This document shows positions 533-1,248 of a stretch of DNA of 64,000 nt, in pieces. The stretch spans positions 1 through 64,000 of the forward strand of contig JAQTQB010000009.1 in NCBI GenBank assembly GCA_028712475.1, written 5' to 3'. Source of the DNA: Verrucomicrobiales bacterium (GTDB lineage Bacteria > Verrucomicrobiota > Verrucomicrobiia > Limisphaerales > UBA11358). How positions within the stretch are numbered: position 1 is the stretch's first letter; each line of letters starts with the position of its first letter. The translations under genes were made by a program, and so were the position numbers. The notes below the pieces were generated by a model. The model worked only from the letters and a program-made list of their open reading frames with translations. It had not been told where the DNA came from and made no database searches.

Positions 533-559
533 CTTTGATTTGACGATTCGGTGCGCGGC
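533..559 (+). repeat. direct repeat, left copy, bounding the PIN/AbrB cassette
   Basis: A 27-base sequence containing TTTGATTTGACGATTCGG recurs at 1222-1248 with one mismatch. The two copies bracket the toxin-antitoxin pair at 563-1179. The right copy carries the likely -35 element of pyrH, so this left copy looks like a duplication of the pyrH upstream flank made when the cassette entered. Confidence 0.8.
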
Positions 560-562
560 GAT

Positions 563-955
563 TTACGGCGTGACCAGCCGCACTGATGGGAAAAAAGTGC
601 GGACGCGGCGCGGGTCGCGGGTGAGCAGCGGCAGATGTGCGACGTAAGCGTGCGCGCCGATGAAAAAGTCCGGCAAGGGTCGCGCTTTCCGACCGCCTGC
701 GCGCCGGTATTTTTCAAATGCCTTGCCCGCTTGAAACGCCGCGTTCAACGGCAACGGCAGACAGGTGAAGACCGACAGCCGGTGCTCAAGTTCCTTTTGT
801 GTGTCGAATTTTACAGAGAGTTCCGCGAAGATGATGGCGTCGTAACAAACTGCTCCTTGATTGGCCCACCGTTCAATTTGTCCACTTGACCATTCAAACC
901 AACCCGGGTCTTTCGTGAGAATGTCCGCGATAACACTGGTGTCCACCAGAATCAT
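563..955 (-). CDS. PIN-domain ribonuclease toxin, VapC type
   Basis: This is a PIN-domain endoribonuclease, the toxin of a type II toxin-antitoxin pair. VapC proteins usually cleave tRNA or rRNA when the antitoxin is lost. The start at 955 gives MILVDTSVIADIL, with the first metal-binding Asp in VDTSV. The conserved Glu lies in IIFAELSV and the C-terminal acidic residue in PLPDFFIGAHA, followed by LLTRDPRR. Length is about 130 aa, normal for the family. The ATG overlaps the stop codon of the upstream antitoxin gene (ATGA, 952-955), which implies translational coupling. An alternative start at 982 would add nine residues inside the antitoxin gene and is less likely. Confidence 0.88.
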   Translation of the reverse strand: MILVDTSVIADILTKDPGWFEWSSGQIERWANQGAVCYDAIIFAELSVKFDTQKELEHRLSVFTCLPLPLNAAFQAGKAFEKYRRAGGRKARPLPDFFIGAHAYVAHLPLLTRDPRRVRTFFPSVRLVTP

Positions 956-1179
956 GCCGTTCCTCGCGTCAAGCGCAGCCATTCATCAGTGTGGCCTTTG
1001 ATTTTTCCGCCGCGCAGCAATGTCGCAAGAACCCGGCTGCCGCGCGTGAGTTTTGCGGCTTTGACCACGAGCACACCGTCCGGTTGATCCACAAATTCAA
1101 TTTCACGGTGCGGCAGCAGCCCGTGCCGTTTGCGTAACTTCGGCGGAATTGTGACTTGACCTTTATCGGTGACTTTCAT
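952..1179 (-). CDS. AbrB/MazE-type antitoxin
   Basis: This small protein (75 aa) begins MKVTDKGQVTIPPKLRKRHG, the hallmark of the SpoVT/AbrB swapped-hairpin DNA-binding fold found in VapB and MazE antitoxins. The C-terminal tail should wrap the PIN toxin encoded immediately downstream. I chose the start at 1179 because the AbrB fold begins there; a longer frame to 1281 would run through the likely pyrH promoter. Such antitoxins usually repress their own promoter, which here would lie in the 107-base gap shared with the divergent pyrH gene. Confidence 0.88.
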   Translation of the reverse strand: MKVTDKGQVTIPPKLRKRHGLLPHREIEFVDQPDGVLVVKAAKLTRGSRVLATLLRGGKIKGHTDEWLRLTRGTA

Positions 1180-1221
1180 GTGGCAAAATTTACGCTTCGT
1201 TTCAGCAAACTGCAAGCGCGT

Positions 1222-1248
1222 CTTTGATTTGACGATTCGGCGCGCGGC
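1222..1248 (+). repeat. direct repeat, right copy, bounding the PIN/AbrB cassette
   Basis: Matches 533-559 with a single internal mismatch (C for T). It overlaps the putative pyrH promoter, so it is probably the original copy. The repeat unit (one copy plus cassette) is 689 bases. Confidence 0.8.

Follow-up and report, generated by a model that had tools for sequence, protein, structure and literature searches.

Near the left end of the window (the whole stretch of DNA analysed, 64 kb in length), in front of pyrH, a predicted toxin-antitoxin (TA) pair is enclosed by two copies of a 27-bp sequence. The pyrH relatives place the genome in the Verrucomicrobiota, within the Pedosphaera/Limisphaerales group. 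The features of this first cassette are the following:

533..559, no strand: left 27-bp copy, a truncated pyrH promoter flank with a -35-like hexamer and without the -10-like element
563..982, minus strand: predicted PIN-domain toxin, VapC-like (PF01850, 33.4 bits)
952..1179, minus strand: MazE/AbrB-like antitoxin of 75 aa (PF04014, 31.5 bits), upstream of the toxin on the same strand
1222..1248, no strand: right 27-bp copy, in place in the pyrH promoter region, with the upstream element conserved in genus relatives
1287..2009, plus strand: pyrH (UMP kinase, PF00696), the intact neighbour

The sequence-only reading had described a 27-base repeat with one mismatch enclosing the TA pair. The copies at 533-559 and 1222-1248 are indeed identical at 26 of 27 positions, and the PIN and MazE/AbrB-like genes fill the space between them, with little else. 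The start of the toxin is likelier at 955 (MILVDTS) than at 982, and overlaps the end of the antitoxin. The right copy overlies the pyrH upstream element TTTGATTTGACGATTC...GGCTGTTAAA in a form that is conserved in relatives; in those of the genus the conserved element before pyrH is TTGAC, with a TTAAA-like box about 17 bp further on. The 27 bp include the -35-like hexamer and the spacer and end just short of the -10-like element, and because of this the left copy lacks a full promoter, which therefore remained with pyrH. Hence, the proposed duplication of the pyrH promoter flank stands as far as the -35-like hexamer is concerned, and does not extend to the -10-like element. That entry of the cassette produced the duplication is supported by the relatives, in which the pyrH 27-mer is present in one copy wherever it can be recognised (L005, for instance, matches it at 25/27), with the exception of the distant genome L026, which gives several weak matches; none of the genomes compared carries the 27-bp pair without a cassette. 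The DNA to the left of the cassette (1-532, up to the contig end at which the window begins) found no counterpart in relatives, so that no exact empty junction was found at pyrH. It contains an ORF at 103-492 (129 aa), AT-richer and with no Pfam match.

A second PIN cassette with the same architecture and a different repeat had also been claimed, and it is borne out upstream of a ThiS/MoaD-like gene:

33821..34096, minus strand: ThiS/MoaD-like gene (PF02597), the intact neighbour
34053..34101, no strand: 49-bp copy belonging to the 5′ end of the intact moaD-like gene
34120..34494, minus strand: second predicted PIN toxin (PF01850)
34491..34757, minus strand: Phd/YefM-like antitoxin (PF02604, 25.8 bits, below the Pfam cut-off of 29.8)
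34807..34855, no strand: fragment copy of the 49-bp duplication, single-copy in relatives

The two 49-bp copies are identical at 48 positions and correspond to the 5′ end of the moaD-like gene: 5 nt of upstream sequence, then the start codon and about 14 codons. Every relative in which this 5′ end was recognised has it once, and in several of them a thrC-like gene, so named from its C-terminal residues and with no profile match behind the name, directly abuts moaD. A third PIN gene (about 34876-35289, minus strand) and a small gene adjoin the second cassette, and no bracketing repeat was found around them (34861-35730); TA inserts seem to be stacked upstream of the moaD-like gene. At the moaD loci of relatives (L048-L076) the upstream junction holds different inserts in different species, behaving as an insertion hotspot.

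Rarity and recurrence of the bracketing repeats

The whole 64 kb were scanned for direct repeats lying 300-4000 bp apart, and three pairs were returned. Two of them, the 27-bp and 49-bp pairs, are the only non-genic direct-repeat pairs of such strength in the window, and three single-base shuffles of it gave zero pairs, even with a lower threshold. The third is a 53-bp coding repeat (46714-46766 and 47059-47111, 345 bp apart), zinc-finger-like and internal to a topoisomerase-like gene, where it is ordinary. Whole-genome searches with the pyrH and moaD regions found two copies of each and nowhere else a further one, so that neither sequence is dispersed at many unrelated sites. Genome searches and shuffles together rule out chance or a dispersed repeat as the source of these two pairs.

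The search for other PIN pairs flanked by repeats of an adjacent gene, suggested by the sequence-only reading, was carried through this genome and extended to ParE-family loci, to 26 genomes of the genus, which belongs to the Pedosphaera/Limisphaerales group of the Verrucomicrobiota, and to the phylum, a locus being counted as bracketed at an ungapped score of at least 17 (+1/-3). Six PIN loci are bracketed in this genome, with repeats that include the beginning of a LysR gene (51 bp, counted from its ATG), the 5′ end of rnr (65 bp) and a pgl fragment; LysR and cvfB were named by Pfam, rnr and pgl by reading the sequence. PIN pairs flanked by the 5′ end of pgl occur in two genomes (L036, 1142-1177 and 1913-1948, and L126); this genome has only pgl fragments at the site. 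Among the genus genomes, brackets surround 22 of 119 PIN loci and 23 of 70 ParE-family loci; about 11 of the 119 fall in a conserved and probably non-TA PIN group. The same rule retrieved 2/50 acetyltransferase loci, 0/30 glyoxalase loci and 0/174 control positions around pyrH and moaD; the difference between the TA loci and the two control families gives p=5.5e-6. In the rest of the phylum, brackets surround 7 of 28 ParE loci.

The repeats at the 45 bracketed TA loci measure 22-246 bp (median 44) and their sequence is specific to each target, while the bracketed spans are mostly of 540-1050 bp, the size of a TA operon. A few brackets have more the look of dispersed repeats or terminators than of duplications (L129, L093 and L334 among them), so that the bracketing counts are upper estimates. 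In two genomes (L129, L093) the TA pairs lie between REP-like elements (GACGAGCCGGC / GTAGCCTCGCCCCAC), and such brackets may not be target duplications. No repeat at the survey threshold was found at 144 of the 189 TA loci; therefore, either scars erode or other routes exist. The same targets are hit independently by different families: in this genome PIN pairs sit at the LysR 5′ end and at the thrC/moaD junction, and ParE pairs occupy the former in G023 (L340) and the latter in G040 (L412).

An empty site and the edges of the cassettes

Comparison with relatives lacking the insert, which had been put forward as a check, was possible at the cvfB-rnr junction. When the two flanks of the cassette located there were joined and used as query, they matched uninterrupted in eight relatives, whereas in this genome the query splits into two pieces that share 65 bp, the target duplication. 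Together with the single-copy moaD 5′ end, this bears out the expected empty site. The end of cvfB overlaps the start of rnr by ATGA; with the duplication, cvfB has its stop completed by the left copy and rnr regains its start from the right one, and it is the length of the duplication that lets a cassette enter overlapping operon genes without harm to either. At the LysR locus a joined-flank search turned up no empty site, since relatives do not carry the gene on its left.

Decayed remnants of the same TA insert are present at cvfB-rnr in G009 and G055, and a different TA-like pair in G056. In the two relatives with remnants the TA genes decayed by internal deletion, and the remnants of the repeat were kept. 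Clean loss of a cassette by recombination between its repeats, which had been foreseen as restoring the original arrangement, is consequently a weaker expectation.

Where one TA family occupies several sites, its members resemble each other over the operon only, starting in the promoter region and stopping at the toxin stop codon, and the cassette often ends 0-20 nt from the TA stop codon. Cassette ends are no more similar in inverted orientation than mismatched pairs are, that is, no terminal inverted repeats were found. In 13 of 45 cases (hand count) no more than 6 nt separate the edge of the duplication from the intact neighbour's start or stop codon. Neighbours remain whole because the duplicated stretch is typically their gene end or promoter, and the position of edges at codon boundaries may be explained by compact gene spacing and selection for whole neighbours.

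Origin of the duplications

Taking together (i) the repeats, (ii) their enrichment at two TA families, (iii) the empty site with its 65-bp duplication, (iv) the lack of terminal inverted repeats, and (v) the coincidence of the cassette ends with the operon, we consider it likely that each cassette is a bare type II TA operon that arrived in a single insertion, duplicating a long and variable stretch of its target (about 20-250 bp) and leaving its neighbours whole. The likeliest molecular step would be that a DNA fragment bearing the TA pair was captured where a break had left long, staggered ends, and that filling in these ends gave the target duplication; no enzyme or intermediate for the insertion was identified. 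Duplication of the target at insertion fits the mutual closeness of the two copies at LysR and pyrH, the variable length of the repeats and the lack of defined ends in the cassettes.

The repeat could instead have travelled with the cassette, if a circle or fragment containing the TA pair and one gene end integrated by homologous recombination with the resident gene end, either in the Campbell manner or by homology-assisted illegitimate recombination after uptake of DNA from relatives. We regard this as unlikely. In its favour, it is gene ends that are duplicated, the same ones serve more than once, and the differences between copies at LysR and rnr are mostly synonymous. Against it, at LysR and pyrH the two copies are closer to each other than to any relative examined, and over the clear gene-end cases synonymous and non-synonymous differences are about even (~21:21 by hand tally). 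The codon analysis of the copies, in which several ORFs are probably spurious, thus gave a mixed picture that favours neither side. The distances at LysR and pyrH also speak against import of the copies from another species, the two copies being closer to each other than to the orthologues of relatives; the comparison further covered moaD, too conserved to discriminate, and rnr, which pointed neither way.

It is rather improbable that insertion is driven, by the TA operons or by some unrecognised activity of the host, through a dedicated long-staggered-cut pathway aimed at gene boundaries, which would make bare TA operons minimal mobile elements without recombinase or defined ends. We find it very unlikely that the cassettes are non-autonomous, MITE-like transposons mobilized by a transposase that makes long target duplications. 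Some insertion sequences, as reported for the IS1549/IS1634 group, do give long and variable direct duplications; however, terminal inverted repeats do not rise above background, relatives of one TA occur at different sites without shared ends, and the duplication edge is often at a codon boundary. Finally, that the repeats are ordinary dispersed repeats or chance similarities near TA genes, unrelated to insertion, is scarcely credible, since a few of the 45 brackets do look dispersed or terminator-like but the 27- and 49-bp repeats are confined to these places in the genome, bracketing is nearly absent in the controls, and the empty site at cvfB-rnr contradicts it.

Under insertion with duplication of the target, persistence of the cassettes might be a consequence of their cargo. 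Recombination between the repeats would strip the cell of its source of antitoxin and expose it to the toxin, and for this reason TA inserts would persist, while ordinary genes inserted likewise would be lost cleanly. Retention by addiction would explain why scars are found at TA pairs and not at other small genes, and would fit the internal decay, rather than clean loss, of the insert in two relatives. The prediction is that addiction, not recombination machinery, holds such inserts in place.

Comparison with known systems

It has long been asked how bare chromosomal TA pairs spread when no mobile element is visible. Of the loci surveyed here, about a quarter retain a readable insertion scar, from which the target, the length of the duplication and, in one case, the empty site can be read. 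As TA pairs the cassettes are ordinary: like chromosomal vapBC and parDE/relBE loci, they join a toxin of the PIN or ParE family to a small antitoxin gene alongside, and differ from them in the insertion scar. Both toxins of the window exceed the PF01850 cut-off and each has an antitoxin gene adjacent, upstream and on the same strand, the first over its Pfam cut-off and the second below it. With integron TA cassettes they share being small promoter-bearing units at many places, but here the units have no shared ends and stand singly between core genes (a distinction drawn from the cassette ends and their placement). Neither the terminal inverted repeats nor the shared ends of transposons and MITEs were found.

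The closest resemblance is to restriction-modification genes, for which Nobusato et al. (2000) and Furuta et al. (2010) reportedly described long duplications of the target at insertion. This mode, insertion with long and variable target duplication, is documented for these genes (PMC3031569, PMC3874152), and a review ties this route to restriction-modification systems while placing TA systems on plasmids, prophages and integrons (PMC3874152); no report of TA insertion with long target duplication was found in the open-access papers searched. As in those insertions, a bare addiction-type operon lies within a long and variable target duplication with no linked mobile element, and the event is deduced by comparing relatives that have the insert with relatives that lack it; the long, variable, target-specific repeats are present at 45 TA loci and the uninterrupted one-copy site at cvfB-rnr. 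In contrast, the duplications here are mostly of 22-100 bp, often ending at a start or stop codon, and the cargo is a type II TA pair. Because the cargo is a TA pair and not a restriction-modification system, the TA cassettes are a variant, rather than a plain member, of insertion with long and variable target duplication as so far recorded for restriction-modification genes. TA pairs are thereby linked to the insertion mode of those genes, which suggests that addiction modules share a single route.
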